Of a stretch of 64,000 bases of DNA, positions 5,237-42,460 are shown piece after piece. Source of the DNA: an uncultured Sulfurovum sp. (lineage in GTDB: Bacteria > Campylobacterota > Campylobacteria > Campylobacterales > Sulfurovaceae). Numbering within the stretch: the first letter of the stretch is position 1; the number at the start of each line of letters is the position of its first letter. The position numbers and the translations under genes are program-made. The stretch is taken from the NCBI GenBank assembly GCA_902727895.1, contig CACVAP010000011.1, forward strand, positions 69,800 through 133,799. The letters run 5' to 3'. A model generated the notes under the pieces. The model made no database searches, was not told where the DNA came from, and was given only the letters and a program-made list of their open reading frames with translations.

Positions 5237-6859
5237 TTAATACCCAAGAACATCTAGTTTAAATAAATTGTCAGTTGACCCTTTTGTTTTAAACTTTTGT
5301 AATCTCTCAGCTTTGACCTTCACACTCTTTTTTGTAATAAGCTGATAATAATTAAAATATAAACTATCTGCTATCCATTTTGTCATTTGCATTCTTGTAA
5401 TTGCTTTGTCTAATGCAGTATTAGAAAAACGATACGTACTAAACATTGATTTGTCTATCTCTTCTAAAAGCTCTTTTAAGACTTGCTCTTTATCTAAAGG
5501 GTCTACTTTAAAAAGGTAAAGACTTAGACTCTTTTTATATTTTATTTGCATCACAGCATTAAATGTTCTAAAACTCATAACACTGTCTTTATTCATGCCT
5601 GTCGATACACCTGTTACAGTAGAAAAAAGTTGAACAAAATAATTAAACTTAGTTAAACTAGGATTGTTTTTGAGTGCATTACGATAAGAAATATAATAAA
5701 AGTTATTAACCATATAAAGAGCTACTTCATAATTAGTAGTATTTTGATTAGGATAATATTTATACTCACGTTCACTTCTAGGGTAAGAGATAACATGACT
5801 TTTCATTAATTTCAAAACTTTACAATAACCATCATTACCCACAGGAACATCAACAAAACCATGTCTAAAACTTCCATAACTAGCATAATTGGGAGCAATC
5901 TTTGTTAATAGTGAAAACATAGGATGACCAGTATCTGTATCTAAAATGATTCGTTTACCATAAATCAGCTTCTTTAAGTCTCTAACTGTCTGATTCATAT
6001 ATATTTGTGCAACATAGAATATACCTTTTTTTAAGATTATTCCAACATCATGAGAATTTAGCCAATTATCTAATAGTTCTATTCCTGTATTAATCTTAAA
6101 ACCAATTAATGTATGCCCATCATGTGCTTCTGCTGATTTCAAGATATTAGTTAAGGGGTCGTTGTTTGCCATAAAGTTTACATTGTTAGCGTCTGCCCAC
6201 TTTAAATTTTCATCTAAATCATCAACCCATTTTTTTGTTAAATTACTTAAAGGCATAGGAGCTGTATTAAAAGTGACTGCCTTTATTTTTTTATAACCAG
6301 CATACTCTTTACTCATTAAGCCTGCAAATTGAGCTAATCCCCCACCTAACGAATGACCAGTAGCTGTAATATCTTGATTTGGATATTTAACTTGCATTTG
6401 TTGCAAAAAGATAGCAGCAGCATTCACCTGATAAGAAGTTCTTCGATTGCTTAATAATACAGAATCTGTATCGATATCATTCCAAGCAAAACCTTCAGCA
6501 TATTTTTCTTTAGAAGTTGTACCTCCAAAAGCAATAATTAGCCTTTCATTATTTATCTTATACAATCCAGCTTCAAATCCTGATTTATCATCAACTGAAT
6601 ATTCTAAAAGTTTAGCCGTATTATTTTTTCCAAATTGAAATTCTTCTCCTATATCTCTTGTTTTATCAATTATATAAATGTGAAAAGAAACGAACGCTTC
6701 AGCTCTATACTCAGCAACTTTATTATTAATACTGTCTAAGTTTATTTCATTTTTTAAAACATGATAACTTGTTGAACTGCAAGTGGCATTTGATAAATAG
6801 CTAGTTGCCGAAAGGTAAAGCGACATAACAACAATCCAAACCCCTATTTTCAGAAACAT
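5237..6859 (-). CDS. Secreted class 3 lipase-like alpha/beta hydrolase
   Basis: A 540-residue protein with an N-terminal signal sequence or membrane anchor (MFLKIGVWIVVMSLYLSATS). Residues 105-260 match the lipase class 3 fold: an oxyanion strand LIIAFGGT (107-114) and the nucleophile elbow TGHSLGGG with catalytic Ser170. D in NNDPLTNI and H in the following AHDGHT or SHDVG segment are candidates for the rest of the triad. The C-terminal 250 residues are unassigned, though ALDKAITRMQMTKWIADSL resembles a degenerate SLH helix. It is first in the operon; AAAGGA lies 9 nt before the ATG. A pair of TTAGTGTAA boxes 73-92 nt upstream probably controls the operon. Substrate unknown (lipid or ester). 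Confidence 0.82.
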   Translation of the reverse strand: MFLKIGVWIVVMSLYLSATSYLSNATCSSTSYHVLKNEINLDSINNKVAEYRAEAFVSFHIYIIDKTRDIGEEFQFGKNNTAKLLEYSVDDKSGFEAGLYKINNERLIIAFGGTTSKEKYAEGFAWNDIDTDSVLLSNRRTSYQVNAAAIFLQQMQVKYPNQDITATGHSLGGGLAQFAGLMSKEYAGYKKIKAVTFNTAPMPLSNLTKKWVDDLDENLKWADANNVNFMANNDPLTNILKSAEAHDGHTLIGFKINTGIELLDNWLNSHDVGIILKKGIFYVAQIYMNQTVRDLKKLIYGKRIILDTDTGHPMFSLLTKIAPNYASYGSFRHGFVDVPVGNDGYCKVLKLMKSHVISYPRSEREYKYYPNQNTTNYEVALYMVNNFYYISYRNALKNNPSLTKFNYFVQLFSTVTGVSTGMNKDSVMSFRTFNAVMQIKYKKSLSLYLFKVDPLDKEQVLKELLEEIDKSMFSTYRFSNTALDKAITRMQMTKWIADSLYFNYYQLITKKSVKVKAERLQKFKTKGSTDNLFKLDVLGY

Positions 6860-7170
6860 CTATATATCCTTTTTTTATTATTTTAGAATAAACTAATATT
6901 CCTAACAGAAACATATAAAACTGGTACAAAGTTAGTGTAACATTAGTGTAATGCTACTTTAAATAAAGAAAAAAAGTATAAGTATAAATTTATATTTTAA
7001 TAAAAAACTAAAAATATAATCAAAGAAAATAAGAAGGATTAAATAATAGCTTTCAGCTGTCCATCCAACTATTTAAGATTGTAATCTCCCTATATTAAGT
7101 AGTGTAGAGTAAGTCAAGTTTTAAATGACACTTTCTATACCTAGGATAAAATTTCCTATTAGTTTACATT
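6860..7170. other. Intergenic region between lipase operon and IS element
   Basis: This stretch contains the lipase promoter region and the paired operator at 6932-6951. I see no open reading frame or RNA gene in the remainder, which is A+T-rich up to the IS end at 7171. Confidence 0.6.
6932..6951 (+). promoter_or_regulatory. Paired 11-bp-spaced TTAGTGTAA operator upstream of lipase operon
   Basis: TTAGTGTAA occurs at 6932-6940 and again at 6943-6951, an 11-bp period as used by OmpR/PhoB-type regulators. The 19-bp core TTAGTGTAACATTAGTGTA is identical to the one at 39054-39072 (other strand) next to the orphan response regulator gene. Relative to the lipase gene it reads TTACACTAATGTTACACTAA, the same orientation as at the regulator's own gene. 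Confidence 0.75.
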
Positions 7171-8048
7171 AGACTTCTTGCATAACCGATGAAGTAACAT
7201 TCAAACCTCTATCCCAATCAATCAAAGCACAAATAAAATTAAAACGTAAGCCAAATCTTTTACGTCGGTTTCTATATTTTTGAGCTACTATTTTAAAGGT
7301 TTTAATTTTAGCATTAATATGTTCAATAGGAATACGCTTTGAGGATTTTGTTTTGTTCGCTAATTTATACCCTCAAGGGGTAGCTCCTCTTCTTTAGAAA
7401 GAGAATTTAGCTTTGTTTTTTTCTTTGGCATCTCAATATTTTGATGAAGTTTCTTAATTCCTAGATACCCAGTATCAACACAAATCAAAGTCTCTTTTTT
7501 GATAGGAAGTCTTGATTGCTTAAAGAGTTTAAAGTCATGAGTATTACTCATAGCTACCGTTGTACAAATAATTCGTAAATTAGAATCTAAAACTACTTGA
7601 CCTTTTACGGTATGTTGCTTCTTTTTCCCACTATAGCATCGTCTTTGCTTTTTTTGGGTCGCTCCACTGGACATTCTGTTGCATCTATTAAAATATACTC
7701 TAATTCTATATCACCTTCTTCATACAGAGCTTTCTTACTTGGTAATGAAAATTTACCTGATTTTAACAAGACACTTTCTATCTCTTTTATTGTTCTTGAT
7801 ACTGTAGCTTCACTTACTTCATAATCAAATGCCATATGTATCATTGAACGATATTCTCGATAATACTCCAACATCAATAGTATTTGCGTTGAAATACTTA
7901 ACTTATTTGGCTTTCCACCTCTACTTTTCTTTTGCTAATTTGCTAATTCACACTCTGCTAACATAGCTTTGAAAGTATCAGATGTTACTCCTATTAATCT
8001 TTTAAATATCTCTGGTTTTAGCTTTTTTAATCGTTCATATCTTTTCAT
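7169..8048 (-). pseudogene. IS5-family DDE transposase, broken
   Basis: The coding sequence can be pieced together from ATG 8048 to a stop at 7169-7171, at the edge of the left inverted repeat. Lesions: an in-frame amber stop near 7936, beside a tandem TTTGCTAA duplication; a frameshift near 7640-7670 between ILIDATECPVERPKK and the RRCYSGKKKQHTVKGQVV part; a second frameshift near 7375, after which RIPIEHINAKIKTFKI continues. The three pieces lie in three different frames. DDE residues are recognisable: D in LIDAT, D in VDTGYLG and E in IEHINA. The N-terminal part carries the HTH (VSEATVSRTIKEIE). It cannot make functional transposase unless frameshifting rescues it, which two shifts plus a stop make unlikely. 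Confidence 0.88.
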
Positions 8049-32861: not shown

Positions 32862-35687
32862 CTATCTAACTTGAAACACAACTTCATTAGTAAATTCAGC
32901 CCATCTGTTGTCTTCATCTGTTAAGTAAATAGCTTTTGTTGCGCCCATTCCCAAAGTATTGAGTTGAGTACTATTTACACCTTGAGCCAATAAATACTCT
33001 TTAACACTATTTGCGCGTCTATGAGAGAGTTCCATATTGTATTCTTCCGACCCTTTTTTATCAGTATGTCCAATAATATCTATTTTTAATTCTTTATACT
33101 GATTAAGTACTTTTGATAATTTATTTAACTTCTCTTCTTCATTTCCTGTTATAGCATAAGAATTACTTTCAAAATAGATATTTTTCAATACATTTTGAAC
33201 TACTTGACTGACACTCTTTTTACTTTTTTTGTTATAAACTAAATGCTTTTTAACTTCTTCCTTTTCAGGCATTTCTATGTAAACCTTACCCATATCCATA
33301 AGACTCTCTTCTTCTCCCTCTTTTATGAAAAATTGATGCCGTGCAACCCCTGTGTATTCTCTCTCTTTTGTAAAGGTAATGTTAAATGCTCCTACCCCCA
33401 CATGATTAATTATAAACTCACCTTTATCATTAGTAAAACTGGTGCTTCTCTCTCCAGTCTCAGCATTAAAAATTTTGAAAGCTTTATGGACTAAAGGTTT
33501 CCTTGTCTCTTGCTCATAAAATGAACCTTTTATAGAATAAAAGTTCTCAACAGCCACATCCATAATAGCACCAGTTTTATAATTGGTTAAAAACTTCTGT
33601 TTTGAATCTCTTAAGTCCACCCCAAAATCAAGAGCTGATTCATCAATGAAAAGTTCTCTTTCAGAATAATCACTTACGTCAATGGCATAAGTATCATAAA
33701 CAAATTCATCTACTTCATGGTAGCCATTTAGTCCTAAAGAGGTTTCTAATTTATCATCATTGTCCACAATGACAAAACTAGAGTTTATAGGTGCTGTCAA
33801 AGTTACTGTTGTTCCTGCGAATACAAAGCCTGTTGCCATTTGCAAACCAATAGTCTCATTCTTTTGTGCGTTGCTTTTAATATCACTTAAAAGGTAAGAA
33901 GCATCTATTCTAAACTTCTCATTATTCATATCGGCTCTTACATTATAGTTTGTTGCTTGTTTATTACTTTCAAACTGTAAGTCACTGTTGACCCCATAAC
34001 GACCTTCTGCATTTCGTCGTAAATTAAGTTGATGTTTTTGATCACTCAAATAGCTCACATACCGTGCATTATAACGATTACCAAATCTATAATCTATAGT
34101 CGCATAGATTTGAGTATCATCAGTTTGTCCTTCTTTTGTTATTTGATCGAGGTTCAACTCTGTTGACAATGCTCCAAAGTTTTTACGGAGTACCACACCA
34201 TATTTATCTTCGTTTTCATCATCTCTATCATAAGATGAAGCTGAAACACCCATAGAAACACCCATACCGACTTGACTGTACAAACTACCTCTATAAAGAG
34301 TAGAAGCTTGACTTTGACTATTCCCTAAAATTGCATATTTAGCATCTATCTCTTCATAACCCAAGTTTATCGTGACTTCTCCTAGGTTTGTTCTATAGTC
34401 TAGCCCTTTTTTATATCCAACAGCATCTTCACTTTTACTACTTACCACATACGGATTGAACAATCCAAAGTTTGTACCAATAAGCAGTTCAGCACTTCCT
34501 GCTAAATACTCCTCACCTGTCTGAAAACCTGTCTCAACTGTTACAGAATCTAAGAGTCCATACTCAACATAAGCCGAAGCCACTCTTCGTTGTTTCTTAT
34601 AAATCCATTCATTCTCTAGTTGTTCACTCTCTATCCCAACACCTGCTCCATATCGTGCTAAGCCTTTTTTGAGTACTTCAGAATAAGAGAAGTCATTAAA
34701 CTCAATGGTTTCTATTTTTCCTCCATTTTCAATGACTACCAATCGTACACGATTCAGTCCACTTGGTAAATTTAAGTCAAAAAGGTTGTGTGTTCCTCCT
34801 GCTAAATTTAAAGCATTACGGTAACGGTCATTAACATAAATCTCTACCCTACTTCGGTTTTGTATGAAAAACTCATGAGAGTTAATACGGGTAATATTTT
34901 GGGTATAACCCGAACCAATATTCCAAATTTTCTCTACCCCAACCCCTAAAGCATTTACAAATGACATTCGGTCATGTGCTGGTAAACTAATGTCTCCTGC
35001 TTGGTAACGTAACTGATTTTCCACATCATCAGTTACAACTCTAAAACGTCCTTTGGTGACTTCGTTCTCTTCATCATTGTATTGTAGTCGTCCCTCTAGT
35101 ACAAAACCGTGTACATTTAAATGAACATCTGAAGAGAGGTTAAATGCATTTTTCTCAAAACCGTTTGAACCATTCTTATTATATTGTTGGTTAAGATAAA
35201 AGTTCATGCCTCCTGAATAGTTTGTAGGAAGAACTGAACCATTAACATCTCTTGCTCGTCCAGACCTGTTAAAGTTCACAAGAGAAGCTTTCTTAAGATT
35301 TACAGGTAAAAAAACTTTAAGTAAAATATTTTTACGATCATACTCTGTTTTTATACCCATTTGTTCCAATGCTTTTAGAGGAGTAAAACCATTACTATCA
35401 ATCTGAACCACATATTGTGATTGAAACTCTTCTTTCATAAGTGAGCGAAGATACTTCACCGTATCTTCTGTCAATAAAATGTTTTCCTTATTATCAATCT
35501 TAACAAAGACTTCATCTTGTAGAATATCATTCACTTTTAAAGGTAAATAAAACTCTTTACTTTGAGCTTTGTTTTTAGACATTTTTGCAAAAAGCTTCTC
35601 TTCGAGTATTTTTCTTTTTTCTGCCATGCTCATTTGGGCATGTAAAACATTGATGGTAATAAGTGAAAGGAGTATAATATTTTTCAT
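32862..35687 (-). CDS. Chaperone-usher outer-membrane usher fused to C-terminal OmpA domain
   Basis: A 941-residue protein with signal peptide (to about residue 17). Residues about 170-720 are an outer-membrane usher barrel with a plug region: FIQNRSRVEIYVNDRYRNAL, LFDLNLPSGLNRVRLVVIEN and FNDFSYSEVLKKGLARYGAG fit the usher family that exports and assembles pilins. About 725-810 is a carboxypeptidase-regulatory-like beta domain (KGSFYEQETRKPL, TNDKGEFIINHVGVGAF). Residues 836-941 are an OmpA/MotB peptidoglycan-binding domain (NIYFESNSYAITGNEEEKL, IDIIGHTDKKGSEEYN, LSHRRANSVKEYLLAQGV). Known ushers I can recall lack the last domain. It is the last gene of the pilus operon and starts inside the TAATG junction with the tip-like subunit. 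Confidence 0.85.
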   Translation of the reverse strand: MKNIILLSLITINVLHAQMSMAEKRKILEEKLFAKMSKNKAQSKEFYLPLKVNDILQDEVFVKIDNKENILLTEDTVKYLRSLMKEEFQSQYVVQIDSNGFTPLKALEQMGIKTEYDRKNILLKVFLPVNLKKASLVNFNRSGRARDVNGSVLPTNYSGGMNFYLNQQYNKNGSNGFEKNAFNLSSDVHLNVHGFVLEGRLQYNDEENEVTKGRFRVVTDDVENQLRYQAGDISLPAHDRMSFVNALGVGVEKIWNIGSGYTQNITRINSHEFFIQNRSRVEIYVNDRYRNALNLAGGTHNLFDLNLPSGLNRVRLVVIENGGKIETIEFNDFSYSEVLKKGLARYGAGVGIESEQLENEWIYKKQRRVASAYVEYGLLDSVTVETGFQTGEEYLAGSAELLIGTNFGLFNPYVVSSKSEDAVGYKKGLDYRTNLGEVTINLGYEEIDAKYAILGNSQSQASTLYRGSLYSQVGMGVSMGVSASSYDRDDENEDKYGVVLRKNFGALSTELNLDQITKEGQTDDTQIYATIDYRFGNRYNARYVSYLSDQKHQLNLRRNAEGRYGVNSDLQFESNKQATNYNVRADMNNEKFRIDASYLLSDIKSNAQKNETIGLQMATGFVFAGTTVTLTAPINSSFVIVDNDDKLETSLGLNGYHEVDEFVYDTYAIDVSDYSERELFIDESALDFGVDLRDSKQKFLTNYKTGAIMDVAVENFYSIKGSFYEQETRKPLVHKAFKIFNAETGERSTSFTNDKGEFIINHVGVGAFNITFTKEREYTGVARHQFFIKEGEEESLMDMGKVYIEMPEKEEVKKHLVYNKKSKKSVSQVVQNVLKNIYFESNSYAITGNEEEKLNKLSKVLNQYKELKIDIIGHTDKKGSEEYNMELSHRRANSVKEYLLAQGVNSTQLNTLGMGATKAIYLTDEDNRWAEFTNEVVFQVR

Positions 35688-38624: not shown

Positions 38625-39156
38625 CATAAATCCTTTAAAATAAAAGGCATAAAATGCTATGATGTATATGCACTTTATACTATAAGGTGTAGCAAACTTC
38701 CTCGCCAAAGTTTAGTTTGCAAACTCTTTAAACATTGCTCTTTAGATATTAATAATTATTAACATTTAGGAGCAATCTTCCCTTGTGAAATAACATCCAC
38801 GTAACAAAATTATAAACGAAGAAAGTCATTAAAAAGTTAGATTTTTATTTTATTTTTAAAAACTACAATTAATAGCTAGAAGCTAGTTTATAATAAAAAA
38901 TAAATATGTTTTTTATTATTAAAAATTAGTTTTTTATCATTATTTACAAAGTCTTTTTTCTCTAAAAATTATCTAATAATCTAAATATTAAAATTAATTT
39001 AATTTAATATATTAATTTTAATTAATTTCTCAAAAGAGCCTTATCTTGGTGTCTACACTAATGTTACACTAAGACTCTCTAACTTTACACTAAAATATCA
39101 ACATCTTTTTTTAACGATATAGTTATACTGAATTAATCAACTAAAAGGAAGATAAA
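38625..39156. promoter_or_regulatory. Divergent regulatory region between pilus operon and orphan regulator
   Basis: About 530 nt, very A+T-rich in the centre (38870-39030), with no gene. It contains the pilin promoter near 38675 (minus strand) and the boxes at 39053-39093 on the regulator side. Long enough for binding at both promoters. Confidence 0.6.
39053..39093 (-). promoter_or_regulatory. Array of TTAGTGTAA boxes upstream of the orphan regulator
   Basis: On the plus strand: CTACACTAA (39053-39061), TTACACTAA (39064-39072) and TTACACTAA (39085-39093). The first two are 11 bp apart and the third 21 bp further, so all are on one DNA face. The core is identical over 19 bp to the site at 6932-6950. 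It ends 63 nt before the regulator's ATG, which suggests autoregulation. Confidence 0.75.
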
Positions 39157-39831
39157 ATGGAAATCTTAAAATTTAATAAACTATTTTTTTCAGGAAAAGA
39201 AAGTGAAATATTAAATTTTCAAACTTATTTTGAAGAAATAATCTTACTTGAAAATAACCAAGAAATTCTAACTTTTCCTTTTAGCACAACTAAAATAATC
39301 TTTATGAACTGTGATGAAATAAGTAACAATTGTATTCAAGTTATTAAGGAAATTCGTCAATATGACAGAAAAAGTATTATTATAATAATGAGTGAAAAAA
39401 AAGATATAGATACTTTGTTTAATGTTCTACCTCTTCATCTATCTGGATATATACAAAAACCTTTTAAAAAAAATAATCTACAAAAATTATTGGAAAACAT
39501 TGTAAAGGATTTGTCTTATTTAGACAATGATAAAAATATACAACTTAAAAACAACTATAGTTTGAACCTTAATACCTTAACACTACTTAATGAAAAGCAT
39601 AATATTATTAAACTAACAAAGAAGGAAAGAAAGCTTATTCAGATTCTTATAAACAAGAAAAACAATTATGTAACATCTGAAACTCTTGAATATACTATAT
39701 GGGAAGAGGACTCACTAAAACAAGATTGTAACTTACGACTAAAACACCTCATCTATTGCCTAAGAAAAAAATTACCTGATGCAAGCATTATTAATACTTA
39801 TAACATAGGCTATAAGTTTGTTACTAATTAA
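39157..39831 (+). CDS. Orphan OmpR-type response regulator with degenerate receiver
   Basis: A 224-residue protein. Residues 1-120 form a CheY-like receiver: beta strands KIIFMN (46-51), SIIIIMSE (73-80) and GYIQKPF (97-103) with the conserved Lys101-Pro102. But the acidic pair normally after strand 1 is missing (LKFNKLFFSG) and the phosphorylated Asp position reads Asn51, so ordinary phosphorelay seems lost. Residues 125-224 are an OmpR/PhoB winged helix (KLTKKERKLIQILINKK, LRLKHLIYCLRKKLPDASI, NTYNIGYKFV). No histidine kinase gene is near. AAGGAAG precedes the ATG. It is divergent from the pilus operon and flanked by TTAGTGTAA pairs, which are its likely targets. Confidence 0.85.
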   Translation: MEILKFNKLFFSGKESEILNFQTYFEEIILLENNQEILTFPFSTTKIIFMNCDEISNNCIQVIKEIRQYDRKSIIIIMSEKKDIDTLFNVLPLHLSGYIQKPFKKNNLQKLLENIVKDLSYLDNDKNIQLKNNYSLNLNTLTLLNEKHNIIKLTKKERKLIQILINKKNNYVTSETLEYTIWEEDSLKQDCNLRLKHLIYCLRKKLPDASIINTYNIGYKFVTN

Positions 39832-39857
39832 GCAAAGTACGTATTTAGTAACTAAAG

Positions 39858-39877
39858 TTAGTGTATAGTTAGTGTAA
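39858..39877 (+). promoter_or_regulatory. TTAGTGTAA pair downstream of regulator, upstream of HTH gene
   Basis: TTAGTGTAT (39858-39866) and TTAGTGTAA (39869-39877), again 11 bp apart. It lies 78 nt before the ATG at 39955, in the opposite orientation to the site in front of the regulator. Confidence 0.7.
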
Positions 39878-39954
39878 AAGAAGAAAGAACCACTATTTTA
39901 ACTAATTTAAACAATAAAAAAGATTATAATCATCTCTATCTAATGGAGAGGTAC

Positions 39955-40725
39955 ATGGAAAACTTTAAAAAACTAAACTATATATTAAATTCTTACATGA
40001 CTGCGACTGAAGTCACACATGCCTTTGGATTTAAAAGTGAAACAATGATTTCTAAAATGAGAAAGGGTGAAAATCGTATCACTCAATTACACATTGATGG
40101 CTTAGAAAAGTACTTCAATATTCCTCCTGAACTTTTTAATATTACTATAAAAAATGAAGATGAAATTGATTTAATCATTAAAACATATCAACTTCAAAAA
40201 CAAAAAGATCAAAAAAAATTATTAGAACAGACTCAAGACTTAAGTCCTTATTGTAAAATTGATAAAAATATTTTTCCTGAAAACCCTAAACTATTTGAAA
40301 AGATAAAAGGCACTTGGTATGGCTATGTTTACCCTTCCAACCCTGCTTCTTCAGAACATGGTATTTGGGAAGTCAAAACAATTATTGGGGAAGACTATTC
40401 CGTGATTGATGAGCCTTGGGGAAATAAGGGTTATCTGAAACTTGGAAAAAATGAAAGTCTTATTATCAAAGAGTCTTATGACCATGAAGACTTAACCACC
40501 ATTCGTTTTTCTAACCGTCAAGTTCCTTCTGGACATTTTCGTTTTGTAGTCATCTCTAACCAAAACCATACCCTCAATGAAATGGTAAACTTTGGATTCT
40601 TCTCACGTAAACGCTATCCTTTAGACGAAGCCAAAGAAATTTTAGGAGACCGAGAAAGTAAACAACTAAAACTCGATGTAGAATTTAATGAACGTCTTAT
40701 TCAAAGGGCAATTGTTCCTCAGTAA
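39955..40725 (+). CDS. HTH-domain protein with unknown C-terminal domain
   Basis: A 256-residue protein. I start at ATG 39955, since GGAGAGG lies just before it (an upstream ATG at 39943 overlaps that site). Residues 1-62 look like a helix-turn-helix (MTATEVTHAFGFKSETMISK and LHIDGLEKYFNIPPELF). A helical linker (about 75-95) leads to a beta-rich domain (about 115-250) with GTWYGYVYPSNPASSEHGIW and FSRKRYPLDEAKEILGD that I cannot assign. It could be a DNA-binding sensor. A TTAGTGTAA pair lies upstream, suggesting it belongs to the regulon of the preceding gene. It converges on the beta-barrel gene with 1 nt between. Confidence 0.7.
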   Translation: MENFKKLNYILNSYMTATEVTHAFGFKSETMISKMRKGENRITQLHIDGLEKYFNIPPELFNITIKNEDEIDLIIKTYQLQKQKDQKKLLEQTQDLSPYCKIDKNIFPENPKLFEKIKGTWYGYVYPSNPASSEHGIWEVKTIIGEDYSVIDEPWGNKGYLKLGKNESLIIKESYDHEDLTTIRFSNRQVPSGHFRFVVISNQNHTLNEMVNFGFFSRKRYPLDEAKEILGDRESKQLKLDVEFNERLIQRAIVPQ

Positions 40726-41569: not shown

Positions 41570-42460
41570 TTAAATAGGTGGGCTAAAGGCTATTGGTGCT
41601 TTTTTAGGAACAAGCCAAATATTTTTTTCCAATCCCATTATCTCAGAGCTAACCTGTTGACGATTACTCTCTTCTAAAATACTAACACGAACCCGTCTAA
41701 ACACTTCTCCAATGGGAATCTCTTCATCATCTAAATATTTCATAAGTGCATAAGTGTAAGCACCGTGTCCATCATCATGAAGACTATAATCTTTTGCTCT
41801 TTGATTACGCTCAGTGGCATAAGAAACTAAAGTTGAAGGAGGTAATTTATAGCTATACTTTTCTTTCTCCACAAAAACTTGAACATCTTCTTTAACCCCA
41901 TCATCATAACGAATGGTAGTACCCCTAAACCCTTCTAAACTAAAGTTACCTCTAAAGTTATTTTTATTTTGAAGCTTCTCATTTTCTACAATATAATGCT
42001 CTTGATAATCTCTACATACATCCAGAGCAATAATGCTATGTCGTGCTTTAACCTTTTTTAAAAAGTCATAAAACTTAAAAATACTGACTAATGTTGGTCG
42101 ATCTTTATCGGTCATCATTAAAAACTGTTCTGAACTATTTTTATGAAGCGTGTTTCCATGCCCAGCAAAGTAAATAAATACAAGGGTATTGTTCGCTTCA
42201 ATGTTACCTTTTAACCCCTCTAAGGTTTCGTTCAATTGATCTAAAGTACTATCAAGAAGCAAAGTAACATCAAAACCTATATTTTCTAATGTCTCTTTGA
42301 TCCCTATTGCGTCACTTATAGGGTTCTTTAACGTATTTCCTCTATAGTCTTGGTTACCAATCACCAAAGCAACTCTATTAATGGGTACTTTCTGGACTTT
42401 TGGCTCAATATAACACCCTGTCAACACAATAATAAACAAAAACATCACTATTTGTCTCAT
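41570..42460 (-). CDS. Caspase-like (peptidase C14) lipoprotein
   Basis: A 296-residue protein with lipobox LTGC (Cys16), hence membrane-anchored. The caspase fold is seen in NRVALVIGNQDY, VFIYFAGHGN with catalytic His101 and SIIALDVCRDY with catalytic Cys149; the second motif differs from the common LDACR by Val. A caspase-like basic pocket (GFRGTT, LVSYATERNQ, HGAYTYALMKYL) follows. Bacterial members cleave after basic residues in some cases; target here unknown. Divergent with the small lipoprotein at 42521, 60 nt away. The ribosome-binding site contains a run of seven G (42468-42474). Confidence 0.86.
   Translation of the reverse strand: MRQIVMFLFIIVLTGCYIEPKVQKVPINRVALVIGNQDYRGNTLKNPISDAIGIKETLENIGFDVTLLLDSTLDQLNETLEGLKGNIEANNTLVFIYFAGHGNTLHKNSSEQFLMMTDKDRPTLVSIFKFYDFLKKVKARHSIIALDVCRDYQEHYIVENEKLQNKNNFRGNFSLEGFRGTTIRYDDGVKEDVQVFVEKEKYSYKLPPSTLVSYATERNQRAKDYSLHDDGHGAYTYALMKYLDDEEIPIGEVFRRVRVSILEESNRQQVSSEIMGLEKNIWLVPKKAPIAFSPPI

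Follow-up and report, generated by a model that had tools for sequence, protein, structure and literature searches.

The stretch of DNA analysed here (the window, 64 kb in length) carries an orphan regulator gene, 39157, with a chaperone-usher pilus operon reading away from it on one side and a helix-turn-helix (HTH) gene, 39943, following it on the other, and, further off, an operon that begins with a lipase gene. Short boxes repeated head to tail lie before the lipase gene (site A), before the regulator gene (site B) and between the regulator and the 39943 gene (site C), in the following arrangement:

5237-6859 (-): class-3 lipase gene (Pfam Lipase_3), 540 aa, first in its operon (Pfam, gene order)
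6932-6951 (+): site A, tandem box pair, TTAGTGTAACATTAGTGTAA
32862-38627 (-): chaperone-usher pilus operon, divergent from the regulator (Pfam)
38631-38726 (-): conserved 5' leader of about 95 nt with two hairpins, before the pilin gene (folding, covariance model)
38809-38814 (-): predicted -10 TATAAT of the pilus-operon promoter (constant distance from the 38822-38842 element to a -10-like hexamer)
38822-38842 (-): separate conserved 11-bp tandem element ATCTAACTTTTT-N4-ACTTT in the pilus-operon promoter (pattern search)
39053-39072 (-): site B, box pair forming the first two boxes of an array before the regulator gene, TTAGTGTAACATTAGTGTAG
39085-39093 (-): final box of the regulator-promoter array, TTAGTGTAA, 21 bp from the neighbouring box
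39124-39129 (+): TATACT, predicted -10 of the regulator gene; the core of the last box is 35 bp away
39157-39831 (+): orphan regulator of OmpR/PhoB type, 224 aa, the receiver of which is degenerate (a pseudo-receiver; Pfam, alignment, model, Foldseek)
39858-39877 (+): site C, box pair after the regulator gene and before 39943, TTAGTGTATAGTTAGTGTAA
39925-39930 (+): TATAAT, predicted -10 of the 39943 gene; the second box of site C is 56 bp away
39943-40725 (+): HTH gene (likely start 39955), putative target of site C, with a lambda-repressor-like N-terminus and a beta-rich C-terminal domain

The first-pass annotation had read the four box sites at exactly these positions, with two of them (39053 and 39858) on either side of the regulator gene, and the re-read sequence agreed throughout. 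Equally correct was its observation of a 19-bp core, TTAGTGTAACATTAGTGTA, identical at two places 32 kb apart, namely 6932-6950 (+) and 39054-39072 (-), the flanks of which are unlike. Site A, read toward the lipase gene, is TTACACTAA-N2-TTACACTAA, with the lipase start codon 73 bp further on; TTACACTAA also points toward the gene at site B and is reversed relative to the gene at site C. In site B the final base of the second box deviates, and a weak CTAA core (39079-39082) lies between this site and the box at 39085-39093, so that the regulator promoter can be read as a four-core array with a spacing of 11-10-11. The consensus of the boxes from the relatives and the window, TTTACACTAACTTTACACTAAC, consists of a 7-bp core CACYAAC and four A/T-rich bases (TTTA) arranged head to tail, in agreement with PhoB-box architecture, and at the level of sequence the tandem direct repeat with an 11-bp period by which OmpR/PhoB family targets are recognised is present. 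The cores lie upstream of the -10 elements, mostly at about -47 to -79.

Pattern searches, from which the genome-wide box counts derive, found the exact pair TTAGTGTA-N3-TTAGTGTA three times in the whole 2.96-Mb draft genome, each time inside the window (6932, 39054 and 39858), and the reversed control pattern had no match in the whole genome at zero mismatches. The motif, for which the first-pass annotation had proposed a genome scan, is rare in the genome. With two mismatches allowed, the whole genome held three additional places for the box pair and five for the reversed control; in the window alone, up to three mismatches gave four matches versus 0.41 expected. A held-out matrix (27 bp, 13 sites, from the relatives only) scanned over the window placed site C at the top (32.3), site A second (22.1) and site B as the next independent place (14.2), while simulated windows (order-3 Markov) reached maximum scores with a mean of 12.8 and an s.d. 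of 3.2; by this comparison sites A and C are significant on their own, and the case for site B, the score of which falls within the simulated maxima, comes from its exact 19-bp core and from synteny. In another part of the genome (C86) a TTGGTGTA pair falls inside a gene and was discounted as coding; the corresponding repeat of the related genome G172 is in a coding gene too. Among the 175 family genomes, an exact pair was present in three of the eight with a close regulator homologue versus one of the 167 others (Fisher p = 0.00025); the perfect pair in G172 (C6) sits between two genes that converge on it, and that in G117 has a context unlike the others.

Regulator homologues with 63%, 59% and 44% identity to the 39157 protein are encoded in G172, G171 and G173 respectively, and in these three genomes boxes stand before the regulator gene at the same place. 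The cores of the regulator promoter are spaced 11 and 21 bp in G000, G172 and G171, with the last core 35 bp from the TATACT hexamer in each of them; in G173 there are three cores, both spacings being 11 bp, in a CCAA variant. No boxes were found near the regulator in G163 and G161, the homologues of which have about 40% identity or less, and in G145 the region upstream of the regulator is cut off by the contig end. Boxes likewise precede the 39943-type gene in G000, G172, G171 (where the gene itself lies beyond the contig end), G162, G169 (with two box pairs) and G152, and in G173 they lie in the intergenic region shared with the 39943-type gene. From the second box to TATAAT the distance is 56, 57, 56, 55 and 56 bp in G000, G172, G171, G162 and G169, and a matching -10 hexamer was not found at the expected place in G152. 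Extra boxes in G172 precede a short 43024-like lipoprotein gene and another lipoprotein gene. The sites, their rarity, and their conservation and geometry are established directly, and the fixed promoter distances in related species indicate that the three tandem boxes are very probably real regulatory switches, which upholds the first-pass reading of the 11-bp direct repeat as an operator of OmpR/PhoB type; the analysis adds that it is rare genome-wide and kept at the same promoters in relatives. It is highly improbable that the repeats arose by chance or by recent duplication of AT-rich sequence with no regulatory role: the intergenic DNA is AT-rich (67% A+T) and sites A and B share an identical core, but their flanks differ, only about 0.009 exact pairs per genome are expected by chance (our own estimate from base composition), and the positions and -10 distances are kept in five genomes at a regulator identity of 40-63%.

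The 39157 protein shows the two domains of the OmpR/PhoB type, an effector domain (Trans_reg_C, PF00486; 41.5 bits, cut-off 26.2) and a receiver fold that is marginal by score (Response_reg, PF00072; 30.8 bits versus a cut-off of 30.2). An alignment of seven homologues shows neither the acidic pair nor the phospho-acceptor Asp conserved (S-G-K and N/S in their place, or deleted), so the degeneracy of the receiver is read directly and the acidic pair and Asp that a canonical phospho-activated response regulator keeps are missing. By the same alignment 39157 falls under the definition of atypical response regulators, which lack one or more of the five active-site residues of the receiver, and the activation of such pseudo-receiver regulators, although they are common, is an open question (PMC12632262). 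Together with the OmpR-family fold, the Asp-less receiver makes 39157 an atypical, aspartate-less response regulator, which, having lost the phospho-acceptor Asp and the acidic pair, is probably independent of phosphorylation and controlled by its own level. The structure model (mean pLDDT 85, pTM 0.61) contains the winged-helix elements, and Foldseek matched it to whole chains of the OmpR family (best E 1.1e-11, with whole-chain TM-scores of only 0.4-0.5), including RitR (5u8m), CosR (8uvk) and KdpE-DNA complexes. No kinase gene was seen adjoining the regulator. Its nearest homologues come from MAGs that bear the label uncultured Sulfurovum sp. or Campylobacteraceae, which places the window in a Sulfurovum-like member of the Campylobacterota. 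The four genomes with boxes at the regulator promoter have the recognition-helix stretch DCNxRLKHLIYxLRKKLP in common, and it is altered in G163, G145 and G161.

On these grounds it appears fairly likely that the boxes are operators of an OmpR/PhoB-type factor and that 39157 is the most likely binder, acting at its own promoter, at 39943 and at the lipase operon. That another OmpR-family response regulator, or several paralogues of similar specificity, should bind the boxes, with 39157 as a target rather than the binder, seems unlikely to us; it draws on the at least 15 sequences resembling 39157 that the genome encodes, on a triple box in G173 before a different response regulator gene (L118), on a similar ATAGTGTA triple box (L119) beside yet another response regulator, and on the boxes kept at the 39943-type gene in G169 and G152, which have no close 39157 orthologue. 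A search for distant orthologues, with a query composed by hand from two homologous effector domains, found no recognisable one in either genome. As the G169 and G152 drafts are 96% and 81% complete, the regulator gene may be unassembled there, or another protein binds, and to that extent 39157 is a candidate binder. The regulator homologues of G163 and G161, which have no boxes near them, also count against it. What speaks against another regulator is that boxes occur on both sides of the 39157 gene in three genomes, that the recognition helix differs in box-less homologues, and that orthologues of the G173 L118 regulator have no box upstream. The triple 11-bp box at L119 (4755-4792; ATAGTGTAAAA, of ATAGTGTA type) precedes the gene just upstream of sox-like genes and adjoins another response regulator/kinase-like pair, and may be a similar operator for a different regulator.

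The 39943 protein has weak Foldseek matches to XRE-type HTH proteins and to lipocalin-like barrels, and its family, for which Pfam and NCBIfam gave no match, has several paralogues per genome within the genus. A lipoprotein of the 43024 family follows the 39943-type gene or shares a cluster with it in G000, G172, G162, G169, G152 and G173, and the box is associated with the 39943/43024 gene pair no less closely than with the regulator. Nearby, a caspase-domain (Peptidase_C14) protein is encoded at 41570-42460 (-), in a cluster with the 40727, 42500 and 43024 genes that is kept in G172 and G173. The 39943 protein might itself bind the boxes, autoregulating its gene and controlling the regulator gene, since a box stands before its subfamily wherever the upstream region is visible (G000, G172, G162, G169 and G152, with a shared intergenic region in G173), including in genomes that have no regulator, and since its N-terminus resembles a lambda-repressor-type HTH. 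XRE-type proteins normally bind inverted repeats, though, and the core CACYAAC is not palindromic; the repeat of 7 + 4 bp has the layout of OmpR/PhoB sites, and 39943 paralogues elsewhere have no box, all of which makes this a rather improbable assignment.

Site A was described in the first-pass annotation as standing before a lipase/SLH operon, and a lipase-headed operon for exported proteins of 540, 536 and 1521 aa is indeed there, but no SLH domain was found in it. No homologue of the lipase was found among the 33 other genomes of the genus that were searched, and the operon may have been acquired. A transposase remnant lies beside it at 7360-7674 (-). The annotation had further joined three surface loci by one shared operator, which is too strong, as site 39053 leads to the regulator and 39858 to the HTH gene 39943, and only 6932 to an operon of exported proteins; at the pilus locus, the promoter has its own, differing tandem element (38822-38842). 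What is left of the claim covers the regulator's own gene, one HTH gene and a single lipase operon.

The pilus operon encodes two pilin-like proteins, a PapD-type chaperone, a 319-aa protein and an usher-like protein (32862-35687, -), in which a TcfC E-set domain is combined with a C-terminal OmpA peptidoglycan-binding domain. Its promoter element, ATCTAACTTTTT-N4-ACTTT, occurs at zero mismatches in one copy each in G000, G172, G171, G163 and G161, always beside the regulator. It was rejected as another copy of the box, as it scores -4.8 with the box matrix and has nothing in common with the box beyond a CTAAC core and the 11-bp period; the regulator may bind here in a second mode, or the element may belong to a different factor. 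Between promoter and first gene in the window, G172, G173 and G163 lies the leader, which folds into two hairpins with three pairs showing two-sided changes (a modest covariation). By covariance model it is present in exactly one copy in 11 of the 175 genomes, all Sulfurovum-like, Rfam gave no match for it or for anything else in the window, and wherever the downstream gene is visible it precedes an operon of pilin-like or repeat-rich exported proteins, which is not evident in G173. The surface operons downstream of the leader are unrelated to one another. Divergent from the regulator, the window has the pilus operon, G172 and G161 have an operon of repeat-rich secreted proteins, and G171 has one containing an RHS-repeat protein. 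As a tentative idea, which we regard as possible but doubtful, the pseudo-receiver regulator, the TTTACACTAAC operators, the second conserved promoter element and the two-hairpin leader RNA, not described before, might form a fixed module of a portable surface-switch cassette, beside which whole surface operons would be exchanged (pilus in the window, repeat-rich secreted in G172 and G161, beta-barrel/RHS in G171, a pilin-like gene in G163).

Returning to 39157 as the most likely binder, its dimers would bind head to tail to 11-bp half-sites, each composed of the 7-bp core CACYAAC and four A/T-rich bases, on one face of the helix. At its own promoter it would occupy three to four cores at about -47 to -79, and near -68 and -79 it would occupy those of the 39943 HTH gene; in this strain the operator would also have been recruited to the lipase operon, where 39157 would bind it. 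Sites of activators are typically found upstream of -10, and, as the cores are so placed, the box positions suggest activation rather than repression. Binding of 39157 to the boxes, the direction of regulation and the signal are thus what we infer, and, judged from sequence, the orphan regulator probably controls itself and a few neighbouring genes. It is best read as autoregulated and independent of phosphorylation, and its regulon as very small.

For Sulfurovum-like bacteria, an orphan pseudo-receiver regulator thereby gains a regulon, an operator and a promoter geometry that can be tested. The findings also point to a conserved control region, including a leader RNA not listed in Rfam, beside interchangeable surface operons. 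A literature search turned up no such regulon for these bacteria.

The pho box consists of head-to-tail 11-bp repeats, each a 7-bp core with four A/T-rich bases, upstream of -10. The boxes of the window share this layout, head to tail with 7 + 4 bp and before -10, but their core is another one, no adjoining kinase gene was seen and the receiver is degenerate; the PhoB model reaches 39157 with E = 4e-7 and 29.5 bits against a cut-off of 296.2. From the same phylum as the window comes HP1043/HsrA of Helicobacter pylori, an essential regulator which recognises TTTAAG repeats, the target being a direct repeat with centres 11 bp apart, and which binds its own promoter at a site on the opposite strand from most targets (PMC5253667). 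Both are orphan OmpR/PhoB regulators of Campylobacterota with a degenerate receiver, the 11-bp repeat spacing is common to both, and opposite site orientations are also seen at the boxes of the window; here, however, the core is CACYAAC, there are three exact sites only, and just a few Sulfurovum-like genomes have the regulator. Neither the sequence orthology nor the TTTAAG-type repeat of an HP1043/HsrA orthologue was found for 39157, HP1043 was absent among the 10 matches in a phmmer search of solved-structure sequences with the 39157 protein (P0001), and the atypical orphan regulator structure 2hqr appeared at rank 40 of the Foldseek matches, with 13% identity. ChxR of Chlamydia and other atypical response regulators combine a pseudo-receiver with an OmpR/PhoB effector and direct-repeat targets, and phosphorylation is unneeded (PMC3960148, PMC12632262). 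The 39157 protein likewise combines a pseudo-receiver with an OmpR/PhoB effector domain and has direct-repeat candidate targets, while ChxR differs from it in lineage, cognate sequence and regulon.
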